Positions 22,283 through 45,368 of a stretch of DNA of 64,000 bases are shown one piece after another. Under the pieces are notes generated by a model, which was given only the letters and a program-made list of their open reading frames with translations, was not told the DNA's origin and did no database searches. The translations under genes were made by a program, and so were the position numbers. Source of the stretch: a virus; the IMG/VR virus record IMGVR_UViG_3300024264_000015, positions 26,320 through 90,319 of that record; one strand, 5' to 3'. Positions within the stretch are counted from its first letter, which is position 1. Each line of letters begins with the position of its first letter.

Positions 22283-25200
22283 TTATTCTGTCCATGTTGA
22301 ACCGTCCCAGTAACTTGCACTAAAGTCGCTTATACTTGCGACTTCCGTGTCAAAGATTGTACCCGCCTGAGACGCTGTTATTCTTTCAAATACTGTGGTA
22401 CTCGTATTAAATGTAGTTGTGGTAAGGTGGTCAGTATCTCTAGTAGTTTCTGTTACCTTACCTGTGGCAAATGTTGTGGTTGTTGTTTTGCCTGTTTCAA
22501 ATTCTGTTGTTCTAGTAGTTTCAAAAGTAGTTGTTGTGTCATACGCTGTAGACTTAGATGTCGTTGTAGACCTATTTGTCTCAAATGTAGATACTGTACT
22601 TCTGCTTGATGCTGTATCTCTTGCAGTAAGTGTTGCTCTAGCAGTATTAAATGTACTTGTAGTTTCTCTACTAGATTGCGTAGCTCTAGTGGTTATTGTT
22701 CCTAAAGTTGTAGCATATACTGTTGTTGTATCTCTACTTGTAGTTGTTCCTCTAGCTGTATTGAACGTAGTAGTAGTTGCTCTAGAAGTTCCTGTTACTC
22801 TTTGTGAGCCTCTACTTGTTAAGTATGCTGTTTCATATGCAGTACTTCTTGATGTGTTTGTATTTCTAGTAGTTCCGAATGATGTATTATCTACATACGC
22901 TGTTGTTCTTGAAGTTTCTGTTCCTCTGCTTGTATTTGTGCTTCTACTTGTATTTGTACTTCTGCTTGTTGTAAATACTGTATTATCTACATATGCTGTT
23001 GTATAGTTTGTATTTACTAAGAATACAGTAGTGAAATTAGTACTATCTACGTATGCGGTTGTTCTTGTAGTATTCGTATTTCTTGTAGTTGCAAAACTTG
23101 TATTATCTACATAGGCTGTTGTTCTACTTGTTTCAGTAGTTCTAGAAGTGTTTGTTGCTTGTGTAGTTGTATATGCAGTTTCATTTGTAAATGATGTATT
23201 ATCTACATATGCTGTTGTAAATGATGTATTATCTACATACGCTGTTGTTCTTGAAGTATTTGTGCTTCTTGTAGTTGAGAATGAAGTATTATCTACATAA
23301 GCTGTTGTAAATGATGTATTATCTACATACGCGGTTGTTCTAGCTGTATTTGTACTTCTTGTAGTTGAGAATGAAGTATTATCTACATATGCTGTTGAGA
23401 AACTTGTATTATCTACATATGCTGTTGTTCTAGCTGTATTTGTGTTTCTTGTAGTTGCAAATGCAGTGTTATCTACATATGCTGTTGTAAATGAAGTGTT
23501 ATAACTTGTGTTGTTTGTAAATCCTGTATCTCTACTTGTGTTAGTGGCTTGTGTTGTATTATATGCTGTGCTATTTGTAAACCCAGTATTTCTACTTGTA
23601 TTCGTTGCTTGTGTTGTATTATATGAAGTAGAGTTTGTAAAGCCTGTATTTCTACTTGTATTTGTAGCCTGTGTAGTTGTTCTAGATGTATTCGTGTTTC
23701 TAGAAGTGTTTGTGTTTCTACTTGTATTTGTTGCTTGCGTAGTATTGTAAGCAGTATTTCTAGAAGTATTCGTGTTTCTACTTGTATTCGTTGCTTGTGA
23801 AGTATTGTAAGCAGTATTAAATGAAGTATTATTTGCAAATCCTGTAGACCTAGTTGTATTATATGAAGTATTACGTGCACCAGTTGCTCTAGTTGTATTT
23901 ACTTGTCTAAATGCTGAACTTGCAGAAGTACCTGTTCTTCTTTGATAAGTTCCAGAATATCCACTATTCTGACCACCACCCCAGCCGGAATAATAGTTTC
24001 CTGGGCTAGACCAGTATACTGTAGTAATTCTATTGTAGTAATAAGTCAGGTATGAAGTAGAGTCTGTAGTTGACCTTGTAGTTCCATAAGAAGTATTCCT
24101 ACTAGTATTTGTACCTCTAATTGTACCTCTACTTGTACCAAATGATGTGTTATCTACATAAGCTGTACTGTTTGTAAATCCTGTACCTCTAGTTGTTCCG
24201 AATGAAGTGTTGTCTACATATGCTGTACTATTTGTAAATGAAGTAGAGTTTGTAAATGAAGTACTAAAAGATGTGTTGTCTACATATGCAGTGCCTCTAG
24301 TTGTATTTGTATTTCTTGTTGTACCAAATGAAGTGTTATCTACGTATGCAGTACTTCTACTTGTGTTTGTATTTCTACTTGTTCCAAAAGAGGTGTTATC
24401 TACATAAGCAGTAGACCTACTTGTATTTGTACTTCTTGTTGTGCTTCTTGTTGTACTTCTCGATGTATTTGTTGCTTGAGTAGTTGTATACGAAGTAGAG
24501 TTTGTAAATCCTGTAGACCTAGAAGTATTTGTAGATTGTGTAGTTGTTCTAGATGTATTTGTTGCTTGAGTAGTTGTATACGAAGTATTATTAGTAAATC
24601 CTGTACTTCTACTTGTATTCGTAGACTGTGTAGTTGTTCTACTCGTATTAGTAGATTGTGTAGTATCATAACTTGTATTGTTACTAAATCCTGTACTTCT
24701 ACTTGTGTTAGTAGACTGTGTAGTTGTTCTACTTGTGTTTGTACTTCTAGCTGTATTTGTATTTCTTGTTGTACCAAATGAAGTGTTGTCTACATATGCT
24801 GTTGCTGTTCCATATACAGTAGTTCTAGAAGTGTTTGTTGCTTGTGTAGTTGTATACGAAGTAGAGTTTGTAAATCCTGTGTCTCTTGATGTATTTGTAT
24901 TTCTACTTGTAGTTACACTTGTATTAGAAGCTCTAGAAGTTGTTCTACTCGTATTAGTAGATTGTGTAGTATCATAACTTGTATTATTCGTAAATCCTGT
25001 ATTATCTACATAAGCTGTTGATGTATTATATACAGTAGTTCTAGAAGTGTTTGTTGCTTGTGTAGTTGTATACGCTGTCTGGTTTGTAAATCCTGTAGAC
25101 CTAGATGTACCAATTACAGTATCAAAACTTGTAACATATGTTGTAGTTGTATTGTAGTTGGTAGTAGTGCTACGTGCGGTATTAAAGGTCGTAGTAGTTG

Positions 25201-25699
25201 TATACGTAGTAGTAGTATCGTGACTTGTTAAAAAAGTGGTTGTAGTTGTATACGCTGTTGTAGTATTAAATACTGTTGTAGTACCTTGTGTAGTTGTAAA
25301 GGTAGTTGTAGTATTGAATGTTGTAGTAGTTGTAAATAGAGTTGTAGTTGTAGTGGTTGTATTATATGTTGTAGTCGTATTGTGAGTAGTGCTTCTACTT
25401 GTATTCGTAGCTCTATCCGTATCAAATGTTGTTACTCTATCTGTGTTATATGTTGTTGTTGTGCCACGAGTTGTATCAAATCCAGTAGTCGTATTAAACG
25501 CTGTTACCTGTACACCTGATATGGTAGTTCTAGCTGTTGCTGTATTTCTTGAAGTTTCGTGAACGACAGAAAATGGCCCTTCTAGAGCACCACTATCGTT
25601 TACGTATACTTCATTAACCCTTCGTATTGTGCCATTGTCGTTGATGGCGAGAAAGGATATCTGACGTAATGTACCATTGTCATTAACATATATTGCCAT
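22283..25699 (-). CDS. Giant Thr/Asn/Ser/Arg repeat fibre protein
   Basis: This 1138-aa protein is almost all low-complexity repeats. The N-terminus has three VNDNGTLRQI-like units (residues about 4-40), probably the attachment part. Then comes a poly-TTT region with F, Y, H or R every 4-6 residues, and a long array of NTSRTT, TNTSRST and AYVDNTSF units; YVDN occurs about 17 times. A Gly/aromatic island (YWSSPGNYYSGWGGG) interrupts the array near 23.95-24.07 kb. The C-terminus (SASYWDGSTWTE) is non-repetitive. Lys, Cys and Pro are nearly absent. It is a fibre-like virion protein by position. Antisense reading frames are open over much of it because of codon bias and are not genes. Confidence 0.8.
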   Translation of the reverse strand: MAIYVNDNGTLRQISFLAINDNGTIRRVNEVYVNDSGALEGPFSVVHETSRNTATARTTISGVQVTAFNTTTGFDTTRGTTTTYNTDRVTTFDTDRATNTSRSTTHNTTTTYNTTTTTTTLFTTTTTFNTTTTFTTTQGTTTVFNTTTAYTTTTTFLTSHDTTTTYTTTTTFNTARSTTTNYNTTTTYVTSFDTVIGTSRSTGFTNQTAYTTTQATNTSRTTVYNTSTAYVDNTGFTNNTSYDTTQSTNTSRTTSRASNTSVTTSRNTNTSRDTGFTNSTSYTTTQATNTSRTTVYGTATAYVDNTSFGTTRNTNTARSTNTSRTTTQSTNTSRSTGFSNNTSYDTTQSTNTSRTTTQSTNTSRSTGFTNNTSYTTTQATNTSRTTTQSTNTSRSTGFTNSTSYTTTQATNTSRSTTRSTTRSTNTSRSTAYVDNTSFGTSRNTNTSRSTAYVDNTSFGTTRNTNTTRGTAYVDNTSFSTSFTNSTSFTNSTAYVDNTSFGTTRGTGFTNSTAYVDNTSFGTSRGTIRGTNTSRNTSYGTTRSTTDSTSYLTYYYNRITTVYWSSPGNYYSGWGGGQNSGYSGTYQRRTGTSASSAFRQVNTTRATGARNTSYNTTRSTGFANNTSFNTAYNTSQATNTSRNTNTSRNTAYNTTQATNTSRNTNTSRNTNTSRTTTQATNTSRNTGFTNSTSYNTTQATNTSRNTGFTNSTAYNTTQATNTSRDTGFTNNTSYNTSFTTAYVDNTAFATTRNTNTARTTAYVDNTSFSTAYVDNTSFSTTRSTNTARTTAYVDNTSFTTAYVDNTSFSTTRSTNTSRTTAYVDNTSFTTAYVDNTSFTNETAYTTTQATNTSRTTETSRTTAYVDNTSFATTRNTNTTRTTAYVDSTNFTTVFLVNTNYTTAYVDNTVFTTSRSTNTSRSTNTSRGTETSRTTAYVDNTSFGTTRNTNTSRSTAYETAYLTSRGSQRVTGTSRATTTTFNTARGTTTSRDTTTVYATTLGTITTRATQSSRETTSTFNTARATLTARDTASSRSTVSTFETNRSTTTSKSTAYDTTTTFETTRTTEFETGKTTTTTFATGKVTETTRDTDHLTTTTFNTSTTVFERITASQAGTIFDTEVASISDFSASYWDGSTWTE
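22380..25520 (-). repeat. Degenerate coding repeat array (NTSR/AYVDNTSF units)
   Basis: The DNA here is a degenerate tandem array of short coding units. The AYVDNTSF unit appears on the plus strand as its reverse complement, about 17 copies, many with synonymous changes, so the array is old or selected at protein level rather than freshly duplicated. Neighbouring units (SRTT, TNTSR) recur with 9-30 bp offsets. It is in frame throughout and is not a CRISPR array. Confidence 0.85.
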
Positions 25700-25925: not shown

Positions 25926-28900
25926 TTATACCTCTATTGTTGTTCTTATGAACTTGTATGCCATTGTGTCTGCACTTGCTGGCGTTACTCTTAATCTTAC
26001 ATTACCTGCACTTACATCTGCGTCAAATGTTGCTTGTGCTCCATTGTCAAAGATAGACGCGTACTGTGTTAAGTATACATCTGACCCATCATGGAATAGG
26101 AAAATTTCTAATGCTTGATAATCTGAATCTGTTGTGTTTTTAATCTGTACTACATATTTAGCAGTTCTAAATACAGTAGTTGCAAAACTATCTAGTGTAA
26201 ATACTGTCGTTGCAGATGAACTTCCTGTACCAACATCCATACCAGCTACTTCGTCTATGTGAAGTTTTTGTGGTGGATTAGTGTCTTGAATACCTATGCT
26301 ACCTGCTACATTTACTTTATTAGATGTGCTTCCACCAAACCCTAAATCTCCTCCAAATGTAATACTTCCTGTCATTGTTTTACCACCAAGTGCTGCACTT
26401 GATAATTGTGTAGTTGTTATAGAGTTATTTGCAATCTCACTTGACCCAATAGCGTTTGCTGCTATTTTACTGGCGTCTATAGCATTGTCTTGAATTTTTG
26501 CAGTTGTTACTGAATTACCAGCTAATTGTGCTGTATTAATTAGACCATCTTGTATAAAGCTAACGCTATTTATTGCGTTTGCAGCTAGTTGTGTTGCTGT
26601 GATAGAAGCGTTTGGTATTTTTGCAGAAGTAATAGCATTATCAGCTATCTCTACTGCTGTTATTGTACCATTTGGTATTTTAGCACCTGATACAGAGTTA
26701 TCAGCTAATTTACCTACTGTTACTGCTCCTGTGCCTATTTGTTCTTCTGTTACTGCACCTGAAGCTATTTTGTTTACTGTTACGGAGTTAGAACCAAGTT
26801 TTGCTTCTGTTACAGAACCAGTTGATAAATGAATAGCATCTATACTTCCTGTTACTAACTCTGCTGAATCAACGGAGTTAGAAGCAATATGTCTGGCTAG
26901 TACAGCGTCTGTTGCTAGTTTAGTAGCATCTATTGAGTTGTCAGCCATATTGCCTGTAGCAATAGTATTGGCTGCTATTTTTCCTGTTGTGACCGAGGCG
27001 TCTGCTAGATGCTCGTTATCTATACTTCCTGCAACATAATGTTCTGAATTTATAACATCATCTGCTATTTTTGTGCCGTCTACTATGTCTGCGGCTAAAT
27101 GTATTCTGTCTATACTGCCTGATACGAGTTCTGAACTGTCTACAGAGTTTGCTGCTAAGTGTAATGCTCCTACAGAGCCAGTAATTAATTCTGAAGCTCC
27201 GACAGCATTTGCTGCTATCTTACTAGCGTCTACAGCATTTGTTCCTATTTTTGCACTTATTACTGCACCAGAAGCTAACTGTGTAGAGCCTACTGCTCCT
27301 CCAGCTATTTCTGCAGCTCCTACAGCATTGTCTGCTATATGAGAAGCATCAATAGACCCTGTTGATATTTTATTAGCATTTATTGCGTTATTTGCAATGT
27401 TTGGCCCTGTAATAGTTTCTGAGCCTACTTTGGCACCAGTGACTGCGTCATCTGCTAAGTGTATAGTATCAATGCTACCTGTCACTAATTCTGCTGAATC
27501 TACTGAGTTTGCTGCTAGTTCACTTGCTGTTATGCTTCCTGCGACTATCTTACTTGCATTTACTGTGTTGTTTGCAATCGCACTTGCTGTTCCTGTTAAG
27601 TTACCTGTAACGTTGCCTTCTACATTTGCTACTATAGTACCTGTTGTAATTGTTAGGTCACCTGTTGAAGCACCTGTAAATGTGCCTGTACCTACTTTAA
27701 ATTTATCTTCACTTTCATCAAATCCTATAAATGCGTTATTTGAATCTCCTCTTTCAATTACTATACCAGCGTCTCCATTTGGAGACCCTGTTGTACCTGT
27801 ACCTAATTCTAATAATGGGTCAGATATTGTAGTTGTAGTAGAGTTAACAGTCGTTGTTGTACCGTTTACTGTTAAGTTTCCTGAAAGTGTAACGTTTCCT
27901 GTGAATGTTTGACCACCTAATGCATCTGATTTAAGTTCAGAAGCTGATACTGCATTTGCTGATATTTCACTGTTACCAACTGCATTTGCGGCTATCTTTG
28001 CTCCTGTTACAGCATTGCCTGCTATATGTATTGCATCAATAGAGCCAGAGATTAATTCTGCGCTGTCTACTGAATTGTCTGCTAGTTCGCTTGAACCTAC
28101 AGCACCTGCATTGATGTGTCTTGCTAGTATTTGGTCTGTTGCAATTTTTGCTGAAGTAACTTGGTTAGCTGCAATATGTATTGTGTCAATACTACCAGTT
28201 GCTATTTCTGAACTATCTATTGAGTTTTCAGCTATATGTGTTACATCTATAACACCTGTACCTATTTTTGCAGCAGTGATTGAATTATCCCCTAAATGTA
28301 TAGTATCTATACTACCTGTTACTAACTCTGCTGAATCTACTGAGTTTGCTCCTAAGTGGTCTGCTGTTATTGTTGCTGTAGGTATGTGTCTTGCAACGAT
28401 TGAATTTTGTGCTATCTTAGTTCCGTCTACTGCGTTATCTGCAATATTGGCTAAGGCTATTGTATTGGCGGCTATTTTTGCGCCTGTTACTTGTAAGTTT
28501 CCTATATGTGCAGTATCTATACTACCATCTACTAAATGTTCTGAATCTATTGAGTCATCTGCAATTTTTGAGCCACTTACTGCATCCGCTCCTATTTTTC
28601 CACTAGTTACTGCTCCTGTACCTATTTTTGCTTCTGTTACTTGTGAAGCTCCAATATGTATAGTATCAATGCTACCTGATACAAGTTCAGAACTATCAAT
28701 AGAGTTTGCAGCTATTTGTGTAGAACCTACACTATTAATTCCTACATTGGAACTATTTACTATTGCTGTCCAACCCATGTTAGCGTGTGCTGAACATTGG
28801 TAATACAATATTTGAGGAGTAGTACTCGTAACGGCAATTTCTGTGTATGCACCTGAACTTCCTGCTGTTCCGTTATTTGTAACTCCTGTAGTATAAGCCG

Positions 28901-29801
28901 TTGTTTTATTGGCTTCTAAATAAAATCTGAAAGGATGGTTAGCGTTTGACGAGTCATCTTGCTTAAATTTATAGGTATTCCCAGGTTGTAATACTAATAC
29001 TGGAGACTCTTTGCTTTCGAACTTATATCCTAGAGTGCTACCATTTCCGTAGTCACCATGTGCGGAAGTTTTTGTAACAACCGTTACATCATATTCATAA
29101 GTTCCAAATTCTTGAATTGATTTTGCGTTCTTGTGTATTTCACTTGAAGTAACATTATCAGCAACTATTTTTGCTGTACTCACTGAATTTGTGCTTAGTT
29201 TTGCACCTGTTACTTGTAAAGCTCCAATATGTATAGTGTCAATACTACCTGTTATTAGTTCGCTAGAGTCTACTGAGTTTGCGCCAAGTTGTGTTGAAGT
29301 AATACTCCCATCAGCAATATGATGAGCAGTAACTGCATTTTGGGCAATCCTCGCTGTTGTTATTTGATTTTCAGCAATCTTGTCTGTAGTTACAGCATTA
29401 TCAGCTATCTGTAATGTTTCGATTGCGTTTGTTGCTATCTCTGAAGTGTCTACTGAGTTTGCAGCTATCTCGTTGGAAGTAACAGCGTTAGCAGCTATTT
29501 TGGCTGTTGTGACTTGTCCTGTTCCAAGGTGAATAGTATCAATAGAACCACTTACTAACTCACTTGAATCTACTGAGTTTGCAGATATACCTGCGTTTGT
29601 TACTGAGTTATCTCCTACACCTGTTACCGCACTAGCTTGTAGCTGTGCAGCTCCAACAGAGTTTGTAGCAAGTTCTGAGGTGGTAATAGCATTAACTGCT
29701 ATTTCAGAAGCACCAATAGCATTTGCAGCTATCTTTGATGCTACTACACTATTGTTTCCTATTGAATCTTGTTGTACTAAAAATTTACCGATTAGTGGCA
29801 T
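25926..29801 (-). CDS. Decapeptide-repeat fibre with embedded cupredoxin domain
   Basis: This 1291-aa fibre protein is built from 10-residue units of the type ANSVDSSELVSGSIDTIHIG and NAVTSxKIAx, which run from residue 20 to about 225, 350 to 630 and 790 to 1130. A non-repeat domain (residues 229-350) carries a type 1 copper site. A central part (about 640-770: GNVTLSGNLTVNGTTTTVN, then PLLELGTGT) and a C-terminal domain of about 150 residues (LHIDEVAGM, FRTAKYVVQIKN, then RLRVTPASADTMAYKFIRTTIEV) are fibre-head types common in marine phage structural proteins. The repeats should form a beta-helical stalk. ATG 29801 has GGAG about 10 nt upstream. Confidence 0.82.
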   Translation of the reverse strand: MPLIGKFLVQQDSIGNNSVVASKIAANAIGASEIAVNAITTSELATNSVGAAQLQASAVTGVGDNSVTNAGISANSVDSSELVSGSIDTIHLGTGQVTTAKIAANAVTSNEIAANSVDTSEIATNAIETLQIADNAVTTDKIAENQITTARIAQNAVTAHHIADGSITSTQLGANSVDSSELITGSIDTIHIGALQVTGAKLSTNSVSTAKIVADNVTSSEIHKNAKSIQEFGTYEYDVTVVTKTSAHGDYGNGSTLGYKFESKESPVLVLQPGNTYKFKQDDSSNANHPFRFYLEANKTTAYTTGVTNNGTAGSSGAYTEIAVTSTTPQILYYQCSAHANMGWTAIVNSSNVGINSVGSTQIAANSIDSSELVSGSIDTIHIGASQVTEAKIGTGAVTSGKIGADAVSGSKIADDSIDSEHLVDGSIDTAHIGNLQVTGAKIAANTIALANIADNAVDGTKIAQNSIVARHIPTATITADHLGANSVDSAELVTGSIDTIHLGDNSITAAKIGTGVIDVTHIAENSIDSSEIATGSIDTIHIAANQVTSAKIATDQILARHINAGAVGSSELADNSVDSAELISGSIDAIHIAGNAVTGAKIAANAVGNSEISANAVSASELKSDALGGQTFTGNVTLSGNLTVNGTTTTVNSTTTTISDPLLELGTGTTGSPNGDAGIVIERGDSNNAFIGFDESEDKFKVGTGTFTGASTGDLTITTGTIVANVEGNVTGNLTGTASAIANNTVNASKIVAGSITASELAANSVDSAELVTGSIDTIHLADDAVTGAKVGSETITGPNIANNAINANKISTGSIDASHIADNAVGAAEIAGGAVGSTQLASGAVISAKIGTNAVDASKIAANAVGASELITGSVGALHLAANSVDSSELVSGSIDRIHLAADIVDGTKIADDVINSEHYVAGSIDNEHLADASVTTGKIAANTIATGNMADNSIDATKLATDAVLARHIASNSVDSAELVTGSIDAIHLSTGSVTEAKLGSNSVTVNKIASGAVTEEQIGTGAVTVGKLADNSVSGAKIPNGTITAVEIADNAITSAKIPNASITATQLAANAINSVSFIQDGLINTAQLAGNSVTTAKIQDNAIDASKIAANAIGSSEIANNSITTTQLSSAALGGKTMTGSITFGGDLGFGGSTSNKVNVAGSIGIQDTNPPQKLHIDEVAGMDVGTGSSSATTVFTLDSFATTVFRTAKYVVQIKNTTDSDYQALEIFLFHDGSDVYLTQYASIFDNGAQATFDADVSAGNVRLRVTPASADTMAYKFIRTTIEV
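28752..29117 (-). other. Cupredoxin-like domain with type 1 copper ligands
   Basis: Residues 229-350 of the 1291-aa fibre interrupt the decapeptide array. They contain VLQPGNTYKFKQD, then NHPFRFYLE with H289, and ILYYQCSAHANMGWTAIV with C336, H339 and M342. H to C spacing is 47 residues, as in plastocyanin, and C-x2-H-x2-M matches the amicyanin ligand loop. The strand pattern fits a blue-copper Greek-key fold. Whether copper is bound is not shown by sequence alone. Confidence 0.75.
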
Positions 29802-30351: not shown

Positions 30352-31995
30352 TTAGAAAGTACCTCCGTCTAATGTGTTAGTCCATGTTATTGTTCCGTTG
30401 TTTCCTACTTGTAATACTTGTCCTACAGAGTGTGTAGAGTCGTATGTTCCGATTGATAAAGAAGCAAAAGAGCTACCACCATTTGCACCATATAATAGTG
30501 TACCTTCTGGTAGTGCGCTTACTCCTTTTAATCTTGCTGTGTCTGAATTAAGTTCTATTGTAGTATTATCTACATTTACAGATAATGTATTTCCTGATTT
30601 TGCTAAACCGTTTCCTGCTGTAACACTACCAGCTCCTGAGAACTGTGTAAATGTTAAACTATCTGTACCAATGGAAGCTGAGCCAGTTATGTTTGAAAGT
30701 ACAAAACCTGCATCTGCATCACTACCTTCTTCAACAAATGTAAACATACCACCAGTAACTTCTGCTGCACTGTCTGCATCTGTTGTTCTTGTAAGAACGT
30801 ATGGGTTTCCAACATCACCTACTGTTGTTACAGAGTAGATACCGTTTTGTTTTCCGTCTGTCTGTGCTTTTACAAGTACTCTGTCTCCAGATGTTAAGTT
30901 AGTGCTATCTATAGAAACCGCACCATTACCACTTGCTGTAAGTGTTGCACCGACGCCACTAGTACCATTATTATAAGTTGTATTTAAATTACTCTGTGAG
31001 CCAACTCTTACTGAATCTTTGATATCTAGTGCTTGTTTTACAGAATCAACATATGCTTTAGTTGTAGCATCAGTTGCTTGTGCTGGAGTACCAATATTAG
31101 TTATTTTGTTACCGCCCATATCAACTGTTTGTGAGCCTGCGACTGTTAAGCCACCATCAAAGTCAGCTGATTGTGTGAATGTTGCTGTACCAGTAACTGT
31201 TACTGTATCTCCTGAATTATCTCCAAGAATAACATTACCGTCTGCTTTTAACTGTCCGTCTACTTCTAAGTTTGAAGAGAAAGTCGCATTATTAGTTACT
31301 GCTAATGTACCTGCGATTGCTGTATTACCTTCTCCGCTTGTTACTGTGAATTTGTCTGTGTTAATTGTTAAGTTACCAGCAGCTGATATAGCTCCATTAG
31401 AAGATAAAGAATTAACTGTTGCAGAACTTGATACATCTAAAGTACCATTTAAATCTACGTTCTTGCCAAGTTCAATTTCTTCACTACCGTTTGTGGTAAT
31501 TAATTTAATATAAGAAGTACCGCCTTCATTAATATCTAACGCTGCTGCATTATCATCTAAGATAGTGATTGAGTTAGATTGTGAGGCTAAAGATAAAGTA
31601 CCTCCATGAGTGACTGTTACTGTACCAGCTGCATTTAATCCTAATGCTCCTGCTGATGAAATTGTTATGTCGCCACTTGTTACTGTTTTTAAAGTAAGTG
31701 CTGAAGCTGAAGTTGCTAATGTATTGTTAGCACCTGTAATTGCTGTAGCCCCAGTAAGTATTCTATCTATTTTACTATCTGAGCCAACAATAACTGCTGA
31801 GTTAGCTGTTAAAGTCCCATGTGCATGGTCGAGCATTGCAACATACAAATCTCCACCGATTGTTGTTACTGCTGAACTACTAGGGTGACCTATAAATAGC
31901 TTTTGCGAATTAGAAGAATACGCTAACTCACCAGCACCTAACGAGGTAGGAGCAGCGGTGGAACTACTTCTTTTGATTTTAATGGTTTGTGCCAT
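30352..31995 (-). CDS. Tail fibre protein, 547 aa
   Basis: This long beta-structured fibre starts with an adaptor motif (AQTIKIKRSSSTAAPTSLG then GELAYSSNSQKLFIG), followed by repeated short beta strands (TGTLDVSSSATV, TLAVTNNATFSSNLEVDGQ) as in trimeric beta-helix stalks. TNIGTPAQATDATTKAYVDS (near residue 310) is the collagen-like trimerisation/knob segment commonly preceding C-terminal fibre domains. The last part has LTSGDRVLVKAQTDGKQNGI and TWTNTLDGGTF. It would bind the host surface or connect to a receptor-binding tip. The N-terminal motif is shared with the 69-aa protein downstream. Confidence 0.85.
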   Translation of the reverse strand: MAQTIKIKRSSSTAAPTSLGAGELAYSSNSQKLFIGHPSSSAVTTIGGDLYVAMLDHAHGTLTANSAVIVGSDSKIDRILTGATAITGANNTLATSASALTLKTVTSGDITISSAGALGLNAAGTVTVTHGGTLSLASQSNSITILDDNAAALDINEGGTSYIKLITTNGSEEIELGKNVDLNGTLDVSSSATVNSLSSNGAISAAGNLTINTDKFTVTSGEGNTAIAGTLAVTNNATFSSNLEVDGQLKADGNVILGDNSGDTVTVTGTATFTQSADFDGGLTVAGSQTVDMGGNKITNIGTPAQATDATTKAYVDSVKQALDIKDSVRVGSQSNLNTTYNNGTSGVGATLTASGNGAVSIDSTNLTSGDRVLVKAQTDGKQNGIYSVTTVGDVGNPYVLTRTTDADSAAEVTGGMFTFVEEGSDADAGFVLSNITGSASIGTDSLTFTQFSGAGSVTAGNGLAKSGNTLSVNVDNTTIELNSDTARLKGVSALPEGTLLYGANGGSSFASLSIGTYDSTHSVGQVLQVGNNGTITWTNTLDGGTF

Positions 31996-34516: not shown

Positions 34517-35419
34517 TTATCCAAAGTAAGTGCTTGTCATATATCCATAAGCACAGGGTATTCTTAATACAAAGAAACTTGCATTAATCATTTCTGTTTG
34601 TTGTGGTATCTCTGCATTATTATAAGTATAATTTCTTCCAATAGAAACAGGAGCTCCTACGTCAGTACCATTTGCACCTTGAGAAGTTGGACTATCTGCA
34701 GCAGCTTCTACTGGGTACATTGTACTAGAAGTTGTTTTAAATAAACTTAGTCTATTTACAGATTCATATATTTCTTCTTCTTCCTCTTCACCTTCGTAGC
34801 CTCCTCCGTGTTGTTCTGATAAAACTATTAAAGGTACATACCCTAAACTCGGCTTTATTGTCCCCGAACCAGTTAGAAAATTTACTCCAGTAGAAGATAG
34901 CTCTGGATAATCATAAGTTCCTCCAGCTATTCCTATAAATGTTTCTAGAGAATTGGATGCAGGATAACTTATTACCATATCAGAGGTTGTTTTCATAAGT
35001 GTTAATCTATGGTCGACACTAGAAAGATTGCTTGTAAGAGCTGTTACTCCTGATATACTTGCAGCATTAATATCTGCTTTCATATTGTCTACAGTAGTAA
35101 AAGTGACACCAGACGATGTTGTTGTTGTGCTAAGAGTTACTGTTGTTCCATCTATTATTATTTTCTTTCCTGTTAAATTTACTGGGTTAGTAAATGCTGT
35201 ACCAAATCTATTGACTGAGCCTCTTACATATGCTTCTTGGTCTGCTGAGTAGTCTACAAAATTTAATCCTGCACCTCCTGCATATATTTGTCCTGTTCTA
35301 TTTTTTGTGGAGTCAAAAATCATATCTTTATCTGCTCCAGTAGTAACGTCAGTACCTGCTCTAGATACTTTTAATCCATAGGTGCTTCCTATGTCTCCTA
35401 ATAATACTCTATTTGCCAT
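34517..35419 (-). CDS. MANR-family tail-tip protein, paralogue A
   Basis: This 300-aa protein begins MANRVLLGDIGSTYGLKVS then RAGTDVTTGADKDMIFDS, the fullest copy of the shared module. The body has beta-rich segments (GKKIIIDGTTVTLSTTTTSS, DHRLTLMKTTSDMVISYP) and an acidic loop (GYEGEEEEEEIYES), then TQGANGTDVGAPVSIGRNYT. It directly follows the tail-tip J gene (1-bp overlap). I infer a tail-tip accessory or receptor-binding role; no enzymatic motif is seen. Confidence 0.7.
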   Translation of the reverse strand: MANRVLLGDIGSTYGLKVSRAGTDVTTGADKDMIFDSTKNRTGQIYAGGAGLNFVDYSADQEAYVRGSVNRFGTAFTNPVNLTGKKIIIDGTTVTLSTTTTSSGVTFTTVDNMKADINAASISGVTALTSNLSSVDHRLTLMKTTSDMVISYPASNSLETFIGIAGGTYDYPELSSTGVNFLTGSGTIKPSLGYVPLIVLSEQHGGGYEGEEEEEEIYESVNRLSLFKTTSSTMYPVEAAADSPTSQGANGTDVGAPVSIGRNYTYNNAEIPQQTEMINASFFVLRIPCAYGYMTSTYFG

Positions 35420-38400
35420 TAGTCTGTAATTAAAATCCTCCCATTTGTTCCGTCTATTGTTATATTTCCTACTACTATGCTTCCTCCAGAAGCAACACTC
35501 ATACTTGAAGTTACGTTTCCTGATGAATTTATAGCAGTGCCATTGTGTGTGGCTTTTCGTACACTTGCTACATTTATACCACTTGAATCTGATGTTATTT
35601 GAGCATCCGCTGCTGTTAGTGTTATATCATTATTTGAGCCATTATTTAATCTTAAAAGCCCTGTACTTGGTCTGCTAAAACTAATTTGGTCATTTTTTAA
35701 TGCGCTTGGAGCTCCTGCGCTTTGTATAACAGTAGTTCCTTTCTTAATTCTAACTGTAGTTCCACTATAGTCAATATCTAAATCACTGTTTCTTACGTCA
35801 ACGTCACTCAATACAGTACCATTAGCTTGTTTAAGGTTAGTACCTGCTATAGCTCCTACTGTAGCTCCACTAGCTGGTAGTGTACTAAATACTTTACCAC
35901 TTCCTGATATATCTGAAGATACAATACTAGCATTCTTTAAAGCATCAGGAGCTCCTGCGCTTTGTATAACAGTAGTTCCTTTCTTAATTCTAACTGTAGT
36001 TCCACTATAGTCAATATCTAAATCACTGTTTCTTACGTCAACGTCACTCAATACAGTACCATTAGCTTGTTTAAGGTTAGTACCTGCTATAGCTCCTACT
36101 GTAGCTCCACTAGCTGGTAGCGTACTAAATACTTTACCACTTCCTGATAAATTGGTAGATATTATTTTATCATTTGAAAGTACTACACTATTAAATGCGG
36201 AACTTGCTCCTGTTATTTTTCCATTACTATCTATACTAATACCGTCATTTTTTACAGCACCTTGTGAAGCTCCGTCAATAAATAAATTATTACCTGTTAC
36301 TGCTGTTTCATTTGCGTTGTTTGATACTCCTGATAAATTTATTAAACTTTGGGTTAAACCTCCAGTACTACCATTTGTTATTGTTGTACTTCCAAATTTT
36401 ATTTTTAAAGAAGTTCCATCTTGGAAAAGATTTAATTGTTCGTTACTTATTTTGTCAGGTATATTACTCTCAGAAAATTGTTTTACGTCATCTACATTAG
36501 TAAGTCCAACGTCTGCTTTTCCAAGTCCAACATCAGTATTTGCTCCTGTATTTGTAAGTCTAATTTGTCCGTTTACTTTACTTAAAACGATTTCGTCATT
36601 TCTGTATTTATCAGTAATTACAGCTTCTTTATAAGTTATAGAATTATCGGGTCTAAATTTAATTTTATTATTAGTATCATCTATAACAATATCTATGTTA
36701 TCTGGGTCAAAGATTTCCCACTTACCTCCTGCTGGTCTAACAGGGCCTGAAGTAATTGTTAAGCCAGTTGTACTGTCAAAAGTAGCCTCTTTTACTGTAA
36801 AAGTTGCATGGGCAAAAGGAACTACTCCTAAAGTCTGTGACCATCCGCTTGTAAGTCCTGATAAAGTTTTTGTTGTAAAATTAAAGCCTGTTGCAGTTGG
36901 AGCGCTTGGTAAAGCACCATATGCCCAAGCATCGTAAAATACTTGTACTGTTTCTGTTCTTGGTTGTTGTGCTTCTGACTGTATTGCTGGTGTTGACCAT
37001 TCGCCTGTTGCAACAACATCTGTTGCTGTGTTTGAGGTTGCAGTTGCAGAACAACTCCATAAATATTGAGCTGTACCTGTCGGTACTTCATTTAATGACC
37101 ATCCATCTAAGTCTGCTGTGTTTGTTACTGAAGAACTAGCGAATGTATATGTTACATTTCCATTTGGTACTGCCGGTGCAGAACTTCCACTAGTACTTCT
37201 TTTATAAAGTGTTAGAGTTGCTGTATTATTACCATCTGTACCATTTGAACCTTCTATTCTTGTAGGTTCTTGCCATGTAGTTTTGAATCCATAATTTCCG
37301 CTTACTATACTAAACTGTGTTGTTCCTTTGGATACCCATATTGGATTACTACCTGAAGGTACATCTCCTATATCATTATACCAGTTAGTTGGTATAACAG
37401 GAAAGTTTGTTATAGCAGGCGCATTTGGTTGAGTTGCACCTCTTTGAAATATAAACTCTACCTGATTTTGTGGACTCTTAGAATTACCTGGTGCAGACCA
37501 GGATAAACTTCCAGAAGTATTAGCTGTTGAACTTTCTGTAGCAAGAGCTTCTGATGTCCAATAAATTGCCCCCTCTGCATCTTCGGGTATTGCTTGTTGC
37601 CATCCTGAAGATATACTTGCTATGACTCCATTACCAAAATAATATACTCCAGAACTAGGAGCTGTTGGTAGTGTAAATGAGTTATTATTAAATGTTGCTG
37701 GATAATATAGAATTAACTCTTTTACTTTTCTGCCGTCAGTCCCTGGTGCACCATCATCTCCTACTTTTGATTTTGTGAATGTTTGTGCTTTTGTGAGTGT
37801 TACTTGATTTTCTATATTTATACTATATTCTATTTCTGAAAGGTCTACACCATTTGCAACACCACTATGGTCTGCGACTGTAATATTTTTTTCACTTCCT
37901 GTATTTAAAGTAAAACTTCCTACAGTTATATTAGTTGCTGTAGTAGTTACATCGTATTGATTTGTTGAAGGAGTACCTGTGTTTGCTACTGGAGTAAGTT
38001 GTGTTGCTCCTTTGTATACTTCTATTTTTGTTCCTGAACCTGCAAAACTACTTACTGCTCCAGTATTTGATGCTGGAAATGCGTGTGCTTCGTTTGTAAT
38101 AATAGCAGTGTATGCTGGTGCGCCATCCACCCCTTGACTTCCTTGTTGTAGTGAGGTAAGTGTAATGGTATCAAATGCAAGTTCTGTTTGATTTGCTTCT
38201 GATACACCAACTTTAATTGTTTGTGGAGCAGTATTTATAGTTGAAGGAATACTAAAACTAAAGGTATCTGATGCATTATCTGCGCCATCTGTAAAAGTGC
38301 CTTCATCAGATATACCATCTCCTGTAAATCTAAAGTATGGATTAGAAAAATTTTGTGAGGTTGCGGTTAGTGTAATTGTTCCACTAGGATTTGGCGTTGT

Positions 38401-41400
38401 CCCATCTGCTGCATAAATTATTGAGTAGTCACTTGCAGTTAAATTTACTGTTCTTGAATCTGTACCAGCTCCAGCTGCTCCAGGTATACTTTTACCAAGA
38501 GAAACTACTCTTGTTCCTATTGTTTCACTAGTACCTCTATCAGTTATAGTAACTACAAAAGAAGCTGTATCTGCTGTTATTGCTGTAACAGTAATTGCAC
38601 CATTACTAGAGTTTACTACTGTAGTACAGTTTGTATCTGCAGTAGCTATTCCAAACGTATTTGTTGCTGTGCCACTACTTGCAAAAGTATAGCTTATAGT
38701 GCCTTTATTAACTGTGTATAAATTTGAAAAACTTGAGAAATCACTAACAACTCCAGCTGCATTTGAAGGGAAGTTATGGTTTTCATTTGTACCGTTTATA
38801 CTGTAAGCATCTCTTCCTCTGTTTCCACTAGAAAAATTAATTAGTGAGAATACTCCACCTGTATTACTTATTGAAGCTAGTATACAATCTTCTGCATTTG
38901 AGATTCTAAGAGCTTGTCTAAATACATTCTTACCGCTATATGCTCTTGTTGAAACTGTTGATAAGCTAAGTTCTGTATCGCTTGTTATATGACTTACTGT
39001 AGAAAAGAATCTAGTTGCGCCAGCAGTGTCTATTATTATGACATCTCCTGGTTGAAAGTCTGTTGTAAATGCGGTGCTACTTCCTGAAACTTCTGTTGAG
39101 TTTGCAGCTAAAGTTATAGTACCACTTGCTTGTACAAAATCTTCATTTGATTCTCCAAGTCTTTTTGTATATTTAAAATAGTTTTCAGTACCATCTATGT
39201 CTGTTGTTGTTTCTTCTGTATGAAATACTATAGGTTGTAACAAGTCAGTACGAGTTGCTCCTCGTGATAAACTACCGTCATGGTCTAGTAATAGATATCC
39301 AGTTTGTCCATCTGATAAATTATTAAAATCTGCTTGTGTTGTAAATGCTGTGTTTCCAGAACTAACTGTTATTGTACTTTCTTCTTCGGAACTTGGTGAA
39401 TCAAAGGTATAAGAGCTACTTGCAAAAGTTACAGTACCATTTGAAGATTCTATGTTTATAGGGCAAGATAATATACCCCCTTTCATTATACCTCCATTTA
39501 ATCCTTCTCCAAGAGTAGGTACGCCGAAAGGTAAAATTTTGTCTTCATTTACAGTAAGCCTTCGTTGTGTCCAAGAAGAAGTAACACCTAAACTATTTAT
39601 TGTTCTAACTCTAACTATTATCTCACCGACTCCGCTAACTTCTGAAAGATTATAAGAAGTAGTATTTAAACTAGGAAGACTTACTCTAATAAACTTATCT
39701 GGGTCATCTGCACCTGGGTGTCTGTATGCGATTTCATATCCTGCTAAATGTTCATAGACATCATTAATAGCATTGCCATTATCGTCTAGTCTTGTTGTTA
39801 CAGGATGTTGCCATGAAATTAACAAATCTCTATCTGTACTAGAACCTACTTCTGAACCGAATCCTGAAGCTACCATTTCAAGAGCTAGGCTTGTAGGTGC
39901 TGGGACTGCGTCACTATCTTTAGGCGGTTGCATTATTTCAGGAACATCTGGTATTATATATCCTCTATCTATTTTTGTAAACTTTTCTATTTTGTATTCT
40001 TGCGCAGTTATAGCAAAAGACATATTTTTAATATCTTCTTTTATAGAATTTACTATATATTGTTTTAAACTTCCTGCTACGTTAGCTCCATCTTCTTCTT
40101 GTCCTGATACTGTGTAAATAACTTCAGCATTTGGTACAGATGAAAAAGCAGAGCTAACAGTTACTGATGTAGTATTAAATGAAGATATTGGTTTAGTTTC
40201 TACTCTTACTTGGTCTGACCAAAATAATTGAACTATACTACCTGAATCATCTCGCACATTAGCGGCTTTAGCGTCTGTATCTATAGCTGCTCCGCTTTCA
40301 TCTAGTAGTACTAAGTCTCCTTGCTTATAATCTACAGAATTTATAGTTGCACTCTGTTGTGTTAAATATGCGCCCCCTTTAGGGTAGATTAAATGAAGAT
40401 TAAAATTGTCAGTTGTATTTAAAAAACTACTTATATCTCGGTCTGTTTTTATAACTGTAGTAGTAGAACTAGAAGTTGTTGTTATTCTACCACTTGCTAC
40501 TACATCATGAATATCTGGGTCTTGTACATTTATTACATCTCCAGGTCGTAACATTGCTCCATTTATACCAGTAGTAAAAGTAACAACTTCTTCTTCGTTT
40601 AACTCAGAAAATAAATGCCATTTACCATATCGCATTGCTTGTCCTTTAGAAGTACAACCAAATGCTGTTACGTTTTTCGTTTTAAGTATACCTGTTTTAG
40701 CTATATTACTGCTGTCTTCTATAACTACTGTATCTTGTTTAAATTGTTTTTCTGGGTTATTCCAAGTTACTATTACTTGGTTGTGTTTAAATCTGGTTGA
40801 AGTTCCTGTATAATTAAAAATACCATCTACTACGTTTGCCTTTGTAAAAGTATATACTGCACCTTTTTGTATATTAGCACCTAAAGTAACTCCTCCGTTC
40901 CACCAGATTAACATACTTCTCATTGTAGCACTAAAATCTTTTAATATTTTTATAGCATTGGATGATTTTTGAATATAAACATTACACTCAAATCTAGGTT
41001 CTTGTCCGCCTTTTCCATCTGGTACGAGTTCATCACAATACTTTGCTAATCCAAATAAAGTATATTTGTCTATTTGTGAAAAATCAAAATTCGGATTAAT
41101 ATATTGTCCTAATCCATATCTTTGATTAGTCATTAAATCCATAAAAATCCATACAGGATTACTAGTATATACTGCATCGTAATTTGCGTGTCCAGGAGCA
41201 AATGTTTTTAAGTCTCCTCTAAAATTACCATCCCAATCTACATAATTTGAAGTATCTGTACCATTAGTAATATTTCTTGTATAAGAAGGAGTTGTTCTTC
41301 TTACAGAACTTCCTTTTATTAATTCATCTTTTGGAAAATAATTAGTTGGAACTTGTACTTTCAGTCCTCTTATTTCATAACTTCTTTTTGGTATTGATGA

Positions 41401-42846
41401 AAAATCTTGTGCGTCTACAATTACTGCTCCGTAAGCAGAGTACGGATAACTTAATCTATCCATTACTATATTTTCTACAATTTTTAATACTGCATTATTT
41501 TGTATTACCCAGTTGCCATATTCTCCGCCAACTTCATTTATTCTTTCAAAAGTTAAGTAGTAGTCGTCAAAAGGGCCATACTGACTTACATCAAATTCAA
41601 ATAAATAGTTAAATGCTTGTTTTGTTCTATTACTGAAGCCTCCTGCAGCATAATGACCATCATCTGGAGTATATCCTTCACTTCTATTTAAGTTAGAATA
41701 TGATGAAGCTCCGTTTACAATAACGGTTTTGTAAGCATTACTGCCTCTTTGATAGTGAAATTTAATTCTAATTAATGCACCTGCGTGTCTTAAAGTACTG
41801 TCTTTTGCTTTCCATTTGTAACATCCTTGTGGAAAACTGAAAGTACATCTTATTAAATCAATTTCTCCTGGAACATCAATACCCATCTCGGTTGCTGTTA
41901 TAGTTTTTGTAGTGCCAGTGTACGCAGGGTTATCACCTATAGTTACTCTTAGTTGACTCCATGTAGGATAGCCTGTATTAGGAACTGTTTTTAAGTCTCC
42001 ACCTGACACATTATGAGCAGCAGAGCCACTTCCTACTCCTGCAGGTGTAGGTAGGTATGACTGGTCTCTTTCTCCATTTCTAAACGCCCATAAAAAGTTA
42101 TCGTATTTTGCTAAAGGGGATTGTTCTGTGGTTCTTTCAGGAGTACTTAGAGTTGCTGAAACATTGCTTACGTTTCGTCCTCCTGCTGTAATTGTTACTC
42201 TATTATTTGAGTTATCATAACTGCTTACTGTACCGACATAGTCTAATTCAACTGCTGTTCCTGACACACTAGCAGAAGGTGCTAAAGCTACTTTAACTGA
42301 TGTGGTGCTAATAAATTCTGTAATTGTTGTAATTAAATCTGAACCGTCTATTCCTGCTGATGTTATTCTAATTTGTGGTTGTAATCTTTTTTCTCCTTCG
42401 CCAATAACATCACTAGCTACAAAAGTAAATCCAGAAGCGTTTGTAATTGTATTATTTCCGATAGCAGTAGTAATTGTACCTGCTTTAGAACCTCCTACAA
42501 TAAGTATATCTCTAGAGCCTTGTGCTGTGTTTGCTGAATCTATAAAACTTGGATTGTTGTGGTCAGTAATTACTCCAGTTGAAGCTACATAACTAACATC
42601 ATTACTATCTAAAATAGCTACTATATCTTTGTCTCCAAAATTATATGCAGGATTACCATTCAGTTTTATACTAGCTCCTTGGTCTACTAATCCTTCAATT
42701 GGTCCTTCTGATAAAGTATCATATATAACTGCTGTCTGTTGTCTTGTCATTCCATTAGAAGTAGAACCAGTTATCTGGTCTCCAATTATAGGCGCGTTTT
42801 CTTCTCTAAGTAGTGCCATTGTATTTAAGTTGTTTTGTATACTCAT
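35419..42846 (-). CDS. Tail tip/host-specificity protein, lambda gpJ-like (2475 aa)
   Basis: This very long protein forms the tip of the siphovirus tail and probably contacts the receptor. The N-terminal half has the gpJ layout: VIYDTLSEGPIEGLV, NPVWIFMDLMTNQRYGLGQ, CDELVPDG, and GAMLRPGDVINVQDPDIHDV. A fibronectin type III-like segment lies near residues 990-1120 (SLALEMVASGF, LLISWQHPV, YEIAYRHPGADD). The C-terminal half holds repeated Ig-like and collagen-like modules (PGAAGAGTDSR, PGTDGRKVKELIL), then a tandem 80-residue duplication and a final fibre-like region. Lambda gpJ is 1132 aa, so the extra C-terminal 1300 residues are phage-specific. Confidence 0.88.
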   Translation of the reverse strand: MSIQNNLNTMALLREENAPIIGDQITGSTSNGMTRQQTAVIYDTLSEGPIEGLVDQGASIKLNGNPAYNFGDKDIVAILDSNDVSYVASTGVITDHNNPSFIDSANTAQGSRDILIVGGSKAGTITTAIGNNTITNASGFTFVASDVIGEGEKRLQPQIRITSAGIDGSDLITTITEFISTTSVKVALAPSASVSGTAVELDYVGTVSSYDNSNNRVTITAGGRNVSNVSATLSTPERTTEQSPLAKYDNFLWAFRNGERDQSYLPTPAGVGSGSAAHNVSGGDLKTVPNTGYPTWSQLRVTIGDNPAYTGTTKTITATEMGIDVPGEIDLIRCTFSFPQGCYKWKAKDSTLRHAGALIRIKFHYQRGSNAYKTVIVNGASSYSNLNRSEGYTPDDGHYAAGGFSNRTKQAFNYLFEFDVSQYGPFDDYYLTFERINEVGGEYGNWVIQNNAVLKIVENIVMDRLSYPYSAYGAVIVDAQDFSSIPKRSYEIRGLKVQVPTNYFPKDELIKGSSVRRTTPSYTRNITNGTDTSNYVDWDGNFRGDLKTFAPGHANYDAVYTSNPVWIFMDLMTNQRYGLGQYINPNFDFSQIDKYTLFGLAKYCDELVPDGKGGQEPRFECNVYIQKSSNAIKILKDFSATMRSMLIWWNGGVTLGANIQKGAVYTFTKANVVDGIFNYTGTSTRFKHNQVIVTWNNPEKQFKQDTVVIEDSSNIAKTGILKTKNVTAFGCTSKGQAMRYGKWHLFSELNEEEVVTFTTGINGAMLRPGDVINVQDPDIHDVVASGRITTTSSSTTTVIKTDRDISSFLNTTDNFNLHLIYPKGGAYLTQQSATINSVDYKQGDLVLLDESGAAIDTDAKAANVRDDSGSIVQLFWSDQVRVETKPISSFNTTSVTVSSAFSSVPNAEVIYTVSGQEEDGANVAGSLKQYIVNSIKEDIKNMSFAITAQEYKIEKFTKIDRGYIIPDVPEIMQPPKDSDAVPAPTSLALEMVASGFGSEVGSSTDRDLLISWQHPVTTRLDDNGNAINDVYEHLAGYEIAYRHPGADDPDKFIRVSLPSLNTTSYNLSEVSGVGEIIVRVRTINSLGVTSSWTQRRLTVNEDKILPFGVPTLGEGLNGGIMKGGILSCPINIESSNGTVTFASSSYTFDSPSSEEESTITVSSGNTAFTTQADFNNLSDGQTGYLLLDHDGSLSRGATRTDLLQPIVFHTEETTTDIDGTENYFKYTKRLGESNEDFVQASGTITLAANSTEVSGSSTAFTTDFQPGDVIIIDTAGATRFFSTVSHITSDTELSLSTVSTRAYSGKNVFRQALRISNAEDCILASISNTGGVFSLINFSSGNRGRDAYSINGTNENHNFPSNAAGVVSDFSSFSNLYTVNKGTISYTFASSGTATNTFGIATADTNCTTVVNSSNGAITVTAITADTASFVVTITDRGTSETIGTRVVSLGKSIPGAAGAGTDSRTVNLTASDYSIIYAADGTTPNPSGTITLTATSQNFSNPYFRFTGDGISDEGTFTDGADNASDTFSFSIPSTINTAPQTIKVGVSEANQTELAFDTITLTSLQQGSQGVDGAPAYTAIITNEAHAFPASNTGAVSSFAGSGTKIEVYKGATQLTPVANTGTPSTNQYDVTTTATNITVGSFTLNTGSEKNITVADHSGVANGVDLSEIEYSINIENQVTLTKAQTFTKSKVGDDGAPGTDGRKVKELILYYPATFNNNSFTLPTAPSSGVYYFGNGVIASISSGWQQAIPEDAEGAIYWTSEALATESSTANTSGSLSWSAPGNSKSPQNQVEFIFQRGATQPNAPAITNFPVIPTNWYNDIGDVPSGSNPIWVSKGTTQFSIVSGNYGFKTTWQEPTRIEGSNGTDGNNTATLTLYKRSTSGSSAPAVPNGNVTYTFASSSVTNTADLDGWSLNEVPTGTAQYLWSCSATATSNTATDVVATGEWSTPAIQSEAQQPRTETVQVFYDAWAYGALPSAPTATGFNFTTKTLSGLTSGWSQTLGVVPFAHATFTVKEATFDSTTGLTITSGPVRPAGGKWEIFDPDNIDIVIDDTNNKIKFRPDNSITYKEAVITDKYRNDEIVLSKVNGQIRLTNTGANTDVGLGKADVGLTNVDDVKQFSESNIPDKISNEQLNLFQDGTSLKIKFGSTTITNGSTGGLTQSLINLSGVSNNANETAVTGNNLFIDGASQGAVKNDGISIDSNGKITGASSAFNSVVLSNDKIISTNLSGSGKVFSTLPASGATVGAIAGTNLKQANGTVLSDVDVRNSDLDIDYSGTTVRIKKGTTVIQSAGAPDALKNASIVSSDISGSGKVFSTLPASGATVGAIAGTNLKQANGTVLSDVDVRNSDLDIDYSGTTVRIKKGTTVIQSAGAPSALKNDQISFSRPSTGLLRLNNGSNNDITLTAADAQITSDSSGINVASVRKATHNGTAINSSGNVTSSMSVASGGSIVVGNITIDGTNGRILITD
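35708..36149 (-). repeat. In-frame 240-bp tandem duplication in the J-type gene
   Basis: Two 202-bp copies (35708-35909 and 35948-36149) have one mismatch, T/C at 35881/36121, which is synonymous (Thr ACA/ACG). The period is 240 bp (80 codons), and the 38 bp between the copies is more diverged. Each copy encodes SGKVFSTLPASGATVGAIAG then LSDVDVRNSDLDIDYSGTTV and the following strand, a fibre-like module. The near-identity implies a recent duplication in the C-terminal tip region. Confidence 0.93.
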
Positions 42847-43797: not shown

Positions 43798-44990
43798 TTA
43801 AATGTCCTTGCTGCTGGAAAGCCCCCGAAAGGTAATACAACTCTTTTATCTGTTGTTACACTTCCATTAGTTGTACTTCCATTTTTTACCCATCCGAATC
43901 TCATTTTACACCCTGAAGTTGATTTACTACAAGCATCTCCTTTTTCCCAGAATTCTCCATATGTTGGAGTTTGACCTTTACAAGCTTGCTCAACTTTCCA
44001 TAATAATGATTTATTATAGTTTTCAGAGGAAGAAACTCCATCTGTATATACTACATAGTCATTATCTCTATCATCTAAGTAAGTATAGTATTCGGTATTA
44101 GCATTATAAGTACTATATATTCGTACTCTTTTAAAATTTGTGTTTGAATCTGTTGGAGAACCAGGACTACTAGTTCCGAAAACAGCTTGCCAATAATTAT
44201 TTACAGTTACTGAACTAGTTGTTCCATCTGCATTAAATCTTGTTGTTGTTTTAGTAGTTTTATAATAAGCATTTTTTACTACAGTACCAGAAGTATATAA
44301 TGTAAAAGTAGTTGAACTTGGTATTACATACTCATCATCTTGATTTACAAAAATTACATGGGAAACCCCATTTACATAGTAACTTCCGTCTACAGCCCAA
44401 GGACATCCACTTTGTGCTTTCTTCCATCTATCTAAGTGAGGACTTGCTCCTTGGTATTTATGAGAACATTTATCCGCATATACTTTTCTTGCTGGTATAG
44501 TTACTGTTTCAAGGTCAAAAGGAGAAACTAATTCCATTTGTACTGCTGTTTTACTTCTTGCTTTAATTCTGTCTATTATCCAAACTTGTCTTGCAAACTC
44601 TACTGGAGGATTTGAACTATTTCCAGTACCATTATCCAAATATTTTTTTAAAGTGGTTCTTCTAATTAATTTTAATCCTAGTAAACTATTGTAATTAAAA
44701 CTTCCTGTAGCAGTACTTAAAGCATTAGTTACATTTGCTATAGTTACATTAGGCCTTGCCATTGCTCCATCATTTTTTGTTTCAAAGTTTTGTGCTTCTA
44801 TCGGTATAGGAGCATATGTTCTAATTGTAGCAGGAGAATCATAATCTCTAAATTTAAGACTACTTAAATCTGACTCTACTCCGCTGCCTGAAAAGTAAGT
44901 AAACACTCCCTTAGAAACTTCTAATTCATATAAATGTATTAGTTCTGAGGCGGGGTCTAGTTTTTGAAAATCTTCTATTATATTCGACAT
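43794..44990 (-). CDS. Minor tail protein, lambda gpL-like (probable Fe-S)
   Basis: This 398-aa tail-tip protein has the gpL cysteine pattern: YADKCSHKYQG, KKAQSGCPWAVDG, then EKGDACSKSTSGCKMRFGW, which in lambda gpL supplies ligands of a 4Fe-4S cluster. The N-terminal half contains the fold segments LYELEVSKGVFTYFSGSGVE and VEFARQVWIIDRIKARS. The middle part is longer than in lambda. Start and stop overlap the M- and K-type genes by 1 and 4 bp. It forms part of the tail-tip ring that binds gpJ. Confidence 0.85.
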   Translation of the reverse strand: MSNIIEDFQKLDPASELIHLYELEVSKGVFTYFSGSGVESDLSSLKFRDYDSPATIRTYAPIPIEAQNFETKNDGAMARPNVTIANVTNALSTATGSFNYNSLLGLKLIRRTTLKKYLDNGTGNSSNPPVEFARQVWIIDRIKARSKTAVQMELVSPFDLETVTIPARKVYADKCSHKYQGASPHLDRWKKAQSGCPWAVDGSYYVNGVSHVIFVNQDDEYVIPSSTTFTLYTSGTVVKNAYYKTTKTTTRFNADGTTSSVTVNNYWQAVFGTSSPGSPTDSNTNFKRVRIYSTYNANTEYYTYLDDRDNDYVVYTDGVSSSENYNKSLLWKVEQACKGQTPTYGEFWEKGDACSKSTSGCKMRFGWVKNGSTTNGSVTTDKRVVLPFGGFPAARTFK

Positions 44991-45367: not shown

Positions 45368-45368
45368 A

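Follow-up and report, generated by a model that had tools for sequence, protein, structure and literature searches.

A predicted cupredoxin-like domain with a candidate metal site in a phage tail fibre

The window analysed here, a stretch of 64,000 nucleotides, spans bases 26320-90319 of the 90,319-base virus record IMGVR_UViG_3300024264_000015 of IMG/VR. Its minus strand encodes a protein of 1291 residues, probably a side tail fibre, that is built of 10-residue repeats. We consider a domain that interrupts these repeats, is predicted to have the cupredoxin fold and carries four residues, H289, C336, H339 and M342, that are candidate ligands of a metal site. The same four residues recur in related domains of phage tail proteins, in hundreds of sequenced phages from the ocean.

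The fibre and the domain that interrupts it

Sequence identity at a lag of 10 residues is 0.30, 0.29 and 0.28 in three segments of the fibre shaft; within the domain it is 0.04, i.e. the domain is non-repetitive. An earlier note, made from the sequence alone, had described a domain of some 120 residues breaking a strict decapeptide repeat and had assigned the four residues to it; we could locate all four codons (Table 1), and the coordinates of the domain correspond to residues 229-350. The comparison with copper proteins made in that note also stands: 47 residues separate H289 from C336, a spacing which we take to be that between His37 and Cys84 of plastocyanin, and C-x2-H-x2-M has the spacing of the copper loop in the amicyanin chains of PDB. 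A tip was also among the readings offered there, but the domain interrupts the shaft, with 228 residues before it and 941 after.

The pattern H-x(40-60)-C-x2-H-x2-M arose in 8 of 200,000 shuffles of the domain, thus its presence is more than a matter of chance. C336 is the sole cysteine among the 1291 residues of the fibre. Avoidance of cysteine was considered as support for the site and dropped: 62 of the 174 distinct viral open reading frames (ORFs) with the domain contain no other cysteine and 112 do. Three large proteins of the tail region have no cysteine at all (22283-25699, 1138 residues; 30352-31995, 547 residues; 45369-49112, 1247 residues).

Table 1. Coordinates of the features discussed (window positions unless a locus is given)
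Feature	Position	Strand	Evidence or remark
Cupredoxin-like domain, residues 229-350, ~122 residues	28752..29117	-	AlphaFold2, Foldseek, VIA-align, phrog_30742 E 1.9e-45
H289 codon, putative first His ligand	28935..28937	-	Conserved in 79/84 representatives
C336 codon, putative Cys ligand	28794..28796	-	Conserved in 76/84 representatives
H339 codon, putative second His ligand	28785..28787	-	Conserved in 77/84 representatives
M342 codon, putative axial Met ligand	28776..28778	-	Conserved in 79/84 representatives
Fibre protein of 1291 residues, 10-residue repeats, probably side tail fibre	25926..29801	-	ORF with ATG start; PHROG tail fibre families
Fibre C-terminal domain, residues 1162-1291	25929..26318	-	Common to 69 distinct fibre ORFs in the fetched set
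Tape measure protein match	45369-49112	-	
Lambda J-like central fibre match	35419-42846	-	
Major tail protein match	49985-51211	-	
P-SSM4 gp9 C-terminal domain	L328:2501-2788		

The domain is an optional part of this type of fibre. Among the 69 ORFs that share the C-terminal domain of the fibre, 43 distinct ones are open from a stop codon inside the locus and were used for presence counts; the cupredoxin-like domain was missing from 40 of them, the three carriers being the window's own close group. The N-terminal sequence of the window's fibre starts nine of the 43, and six of these nine have no such domain; in five of the six, which are shorter by ~260 residues, repeats occupy the place of the domain. 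As the domain-free relatives align uncertainly inside repeats, we claim no exact insertion joint. Since the domain is missing from most such fibres, it is not needed to build a fibre of this type.

Histidines are also present in the shaft repeats: 18 of them fall between residues 351 and 1130 (window 26412-28751), at residue numbers ending in 2 (10 cases) or in 1 (8 cases), and would form a stacked ladder along a trimer. Two database matches to the fibre, PADLOC PD-Lambda-5_A and the NCBIfam 'acyl carrier protein', fell on repeats and were set aside.

Smaller genes and fibre-like genes lie between the fibre gene and the genes with matches to the central fibre, the tape measure protein and the major tail protein. 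The source, an uncultured ocean phage, is probably siphovirus-like, with the 1291-residue protein as its side fibre. No second copy of the cupredoxin-like domain and no tRNA was found in the window, and megablast of window positions 44000-64000 against named phages gave no match. An asparagine synthase-like gene is present on the plus strand (4859-6373), in the same stretch as genes for DNA polymerase A and ribonucleotide reductase.

Predicted fold and relation to cupredoxins

The structure of residues 224-356 (28734-29132) was modelled with AlphaFold2 from an alignment (A2) of 45 of 67 domains, all of them ligand-bearing; the ligand-less copy from L071 and four named-phage rows had been left out. 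(Alignment A1 holds 50 of the 67 listed domains and alignment A3 holds 39 of 66.) The model is all-beta, with a predicted local distance difference test score (pLDDT) of 90.5 and a predicted template modelling score (pTM) of 0.83. In it, H289 stands just ahead of the strand at model residues 68-71, C336 ends the strand at 108-113, and H339 and M342 lie within the loop that precedes the last strand; such a placement of ligands on strands and loop is the cupredoxin arrangement.

Rusticyanin (expectation value, E, 1.2e-3) and two-domain laccases were the best matches of the model that Foldseek gave in PDB. When the same Foldseek list was re-examined with VIA-align, nitrite reductase 2dv6 came out on top (Z 9.4, root-mean-square deviation, rmsd, 2.8, over 102 residues), and all 50 rows listed were proteins with cupredoxin-type domains, counting factor VIII, which we take to be of this type. 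With the confident model and these matches the cupredoxin fold proposed in the earlier note is borne out as a prediction, and we hold it to be very probably correct. Short 'beta-sandwich proteins' of giant viruses match the fold model as well, at E 9e-9 to 6e-7; these are BFVD entries A0A481Z6J5, A0A481Z7Q7 and A0A481YWX9, from Pithovirus and Marseillevirus metagenomic records.

Pfam and NCBIfam searches with the domain gave sub-threshold matches only. Pfam At5g54830-like (PF25489) covers most of the domain weakly, at E 9e-4 and 19.6 bits, against a curated cut-off of 27 bits; as it stays below the curated cut-offs, the domain is not filed under either this family or Copper-bind (PF00127). Searches of PDB sequences reached pseudoazurin, weakly, at E 0.05 to 0.1.

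The direct sequence link to cupredoxins is thus weak; it is made by intermediates, namely two proteins of 148 residues from Prochlorococcus (L324, L326) and the end of one from Bacteroidetes (L325), all of which score over the Copper-bind cut-off. Alignment of the phage family with the alignment of these three proteins by hhalign had a probability of 96.2 and a score of 55, while the highest scores among controls were 23 for 200 column-shuffled alignments and 9 for reversed ones. When four more classical copper proteins were used instead, the probability was 28 and the score 26, with a shuffled maximum of 20; the first His, the Cys and the second His were in register in that alignment. Furthermore, one of the three intermediates (at G010:C9) matches the phage profile too (E 7.6e-4). 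These comparisons support well a common branch for the phage domain and the secreted Prochlorococcus and Bacteroidetes proteins.

The phage domain resembles these secreted proteins in the string HPFYI around the first His and in the ligand set. The Prochlorococcus loop, however, is C-x2-H-x4-M rather than C-x2-H-x2-M, and the secreted proteins are free-standing, which the phage domain is not. With type 1 cupredoxins (amicyanin, plastocyanin, pseudoazurin, rusticyanin; PF00127 and relatives) the phage domain shares the predicted fold, the ligands and their order, and the loop spacing of amicyanin; those proteins are soluble periplasmic carriers, whereas the phage domain is part of a virion fibre. 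We would assign the domain to the cupredoxin superfamily, with the Greek-key beta-sandwich type of fold coming from prediction and the order and co-conservation of ligands from sequence.

Relatives of the domain and conservation of the ligands

Searching a named phage collection with the window domain (tblastn) matched 56 records, mostly Synechococcus and Prochlorococcus phages along with some Pelagibacter and Methylophilales phages; two Autographiviridae cyanophages (P-GSP1 and P-SCSP2) and Pelagibacter phage Baldr carry the domain as well. Most of the carrier proteins are called tail fibre, baseplate or structural protein, with gene names such as tail fiber, gp7 baseplate wedge initiator and hypothetical protein. 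In Synechococcus phage S-SCSM2R a gene named 'PetE' (plastocyanin; L329:2288-2794) appears to encode a structural-type protein ending in the domain, next to S8 peptidase and FhaB annotations.

A second branch of the family is the C-terminal domain of gp9, the baseplate wedge tail fibre connector of T4-like cyanophages (phrog_677). By profile comparison the gp9 branch and the family of the window domain are related with probability 99.0, and the four ligands are the same; the gp9 domain is shorter and stands at the end of a baseplate connector, while the window domain is within a fibre shaft. The gp9 domain of phage P-SSM4 as a query matched 325 phage records and another query 328, not all of them gp9; the rest of gp9 matched 294. 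The model of the gp9 branch has pLDDT 94.8. Its Foldseek list has a type II secretion chain first (E 3.3e-3), followed by plastocyanin (3.5e-3), amicyanin (5.0e-3), AcoP and pseudoazurin, with Ig-like folds mixed in; in VIA-align 2dv6 was again on top (Z 10.0, rmsd 1.9, 85 residues). Plastocyanin was first when the gp9 profile was compared with PDB (E 0.03), and 8 of 39 gp9-type members match PF00127 at E up to 0.01. In the earlier note a blue-copper fold on a virion was called unexpected; the domain is indeed on a fibre, but with 56 and 325 phage records matched the module is common in marine phage tail proteins.

Outside phages, among genome contigs, the domain ends surface-lipoprotein-like proteins of marine archaea, with a collagen-like stalk (L208, L211), and of Actinomarina, with a Thr-rich stalk (L198, L202), the lipobox being judged by eye in each. 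These stalked proteins look like cell-surface counterparts of the phage design. Some other genome-contig matches, e.g. L181, resemble phage sequence.

Conservation of the ligands was counted in several sets. The baits of a first scan included the copper loop, and its count of 63/64 is not used as evidence. The baits of a second scan contained neither the Cys nor the second His nor the Met, though one of the two contained the first His. With these, the four ligands were all present in 78 of the 79 distinct viral domains spanning the four columns (from the best 80 of 596 relatives) and in 40 of 43 distinct domains from genome contigs. The gp9 branch had them in 66 of 66 distinct domains, and in 34 of 34 of those carrying the loop-free bait. 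The count of C-x2-H-x2-M in relatives is partly by construction, as its columns define the set, and the first His was chosen by a simple pattern.

We also thinned 208 rows, those of 240 that were distinct and near full length, to 84 representatives of <70% identity. All four ligands were present in 74 of the 84; Cys and second His were both present in 76 and both absent in 7, with His alone in 1 and Cys alone in 0 (Fisher values for these counts ignore relatedness). On a rough tree, parsimony needs 6 changes to account for the 8 tips that lack the Cys and 5 for the 7 tips that lack the second His.

Hits in cultured phages, found by tblastn with no pattern used, had the four ligands in 21 of 28 distinct cases, at 25 loci picked from the 56 records mainly to avoid same-strain duplicates; L217 contributes two of the 28, the halves of a single doubtful domain. 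The copper loop was lost in four of the other seven hits, those of S-WAM1, P-RSM6, S-SZBM1 and S-CREM1. Ten ORFs, among them those of L071, L150, L210, L213, L215, L084 and L217, had more than one profile match. Each had exactly one copy with all four ligands, the other matches being degenerate or partial; one of the ten keeps two further copies with three of the four ligands. Three of these ORFs are near-copies of one another, and two have only partial second matches.

The earlier note had asked whether H, C, H and M are conserved together. The counts show that they are, and losses occur as a set; neither of the two outcomes named there as telling against a copper site, a fold other than cupredoxin and freely varying ligands, was found. 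Most copies retain the ligands although the fold can do without them, which is most simply read as selection for a metal site. Judged by these sequences, the site, and not the fold alone, looks to be under selection.

One alternative is that the domain is a structural knob, a stiff beta-sandwich side domain in which the ligand residues have been retained through descent or because they help packing, with no binding that matters. Phage fibres often bear beta-sandwich side domains, the ligand-less copies still match the family profile, and the gp9 Foldseek list has a type II secretion chain on top and Ig-like folds among its cupredoxins. However, when the 126 columns are ranked by conservation those of the ligands come third, fourth, sixth and seventh, beside or behind residues of the fold core, and packing alone does not predict that the ligands were lost together in several lineages; we consider a knob of this kind improbable.

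One could also suppose that the site holds zinc or another metal, or works through the bare cysteine, and is a type 1 copper site no longer. Other metals can occupy Cys/His/His/Met sites and folding in the cytoplasm would favour zinc over copper; still, 79 of 84 representatives retain the Met and the spacing of the amicyanin loop is a copper pattern, which makes this quite improbable.

A proposed metal-holding decoration and its possible role

In our best explanation, a module of the cupredoxin superfamily, with a ligand loop of the amicyanin type, decorates the shaft of this fibre as an optional, metal-holding part and probably derives from the same branch as the secreted marine cupredoxins; as a whole we give this explanation a probability of about 0.6. 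The four ligands appear to be selected as a set, and co-conservation and concerted loss suggest that most copies would bind a soft metal. Metal binding by most copies is likely; copper would be the favoured metal because the Met is kept and the loop is of amicyanin length. The metal would be taken up outside the cell, after lysis. Located on fibres and on gp9, a rigid metal-loaded module might help the particle to engage the host surface or to dwell on it, as a decoration rather than a catalytic or electron-transfer part; this role in cell contact, suggested by location, we put forward tentatively, at slightly less than even odds.

Several observations weigh against this explanation: (i) Pro follows the first His of the domain, a position usually taken by Asn or Ser in classical type 1 sites; (ii) the window domain has no match to PF00127 at E up to 1; (iii) Foldseek with the domain model gave no PDB match with E <1e-3, so that the structural match is a moderate one; (iv) in S-WAM1, P-RSM6, S-SZBM1 and S-CREM1 the ligand-less copy is the only one in the stretch fetched for the tail proteins; (v) the folding of phage proteins takes place in the cytoplasm, a compartment poor in copper.

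The first of these bears as well on the thought that the copper, changing its state on contact with a cell, works as an electron-transfer or redox switch that triggers movement of the fibre or baseplate. The gp9 branch does sit on an annotated connector of baseplate and fibre; nevertheless, no redox partner was seen in the data, the first His is followed by Pro in place of Asn or Ser, and the domain is optional in the window's type of fibre. We regard such a switch as very unlikely.

Another proposal would make the bound copper a bait, recognised by a host receptor for copper or metal complexes. We know of no such host receptor. Ocean hosts are short of metals, and the same idea has been published for iron, which would be held by HxH motifs in fibres such as T4 gp37 and that of Alteromonas phage R22Y (PMC11705849). 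This is the nearest idea in print that we found; the likeness lies in the notion of metal on tail fibres, while the fold, the motif and the metal differ. The window's fibre has no HxH motif (no two His are two residues apart in its 1291 residues) and its domain is in the shaft, and we see only a slim chance that the domain serves as bait.

To return to the metal-holding decoration, this kind of domain is already known; what seems to be new is its location on the virion with an intact and apparently selected site, together with its spread to cyanophage gp9. The open-licence literature that was searched yielded no report of a cupredoxin domain in a phage tail; a paper on Borgs among the matches is unrelated, and the part of the Melnitz phage paper covered does not mention the word cupredoxin. 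The analysis supplies a predicted fold for a domain present in many phage records under the labels 'hypothetical protein' or 'tail fiber'. It also suggests, for the 'PetE' gene of S-SCSM2R, a tail-type protein with this domain as the product.

It is possible that virus particles in the ocean carry metal. Should copper be bound at these sites, ocean phage particles would have a metalloprotein on the parts that touch cells, and this would bear on the open idea that infection and trace-metal chemistry are influenced by the metals of phage tails. One could speculate further that the adsorption apparatus of several kinds of marine tailed phage (gp9, fibres and baseplate proteins) has genuine type 1 copper sites, which are assembled in the cell in the apo form and loaded with copper from seawater after lysis, and that their occupancy tunes attachment. 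We think this rather unlikely; if it were true, virions would make up some of the copper-binding matter of the sea, and the chemistry of copper would affect infection.

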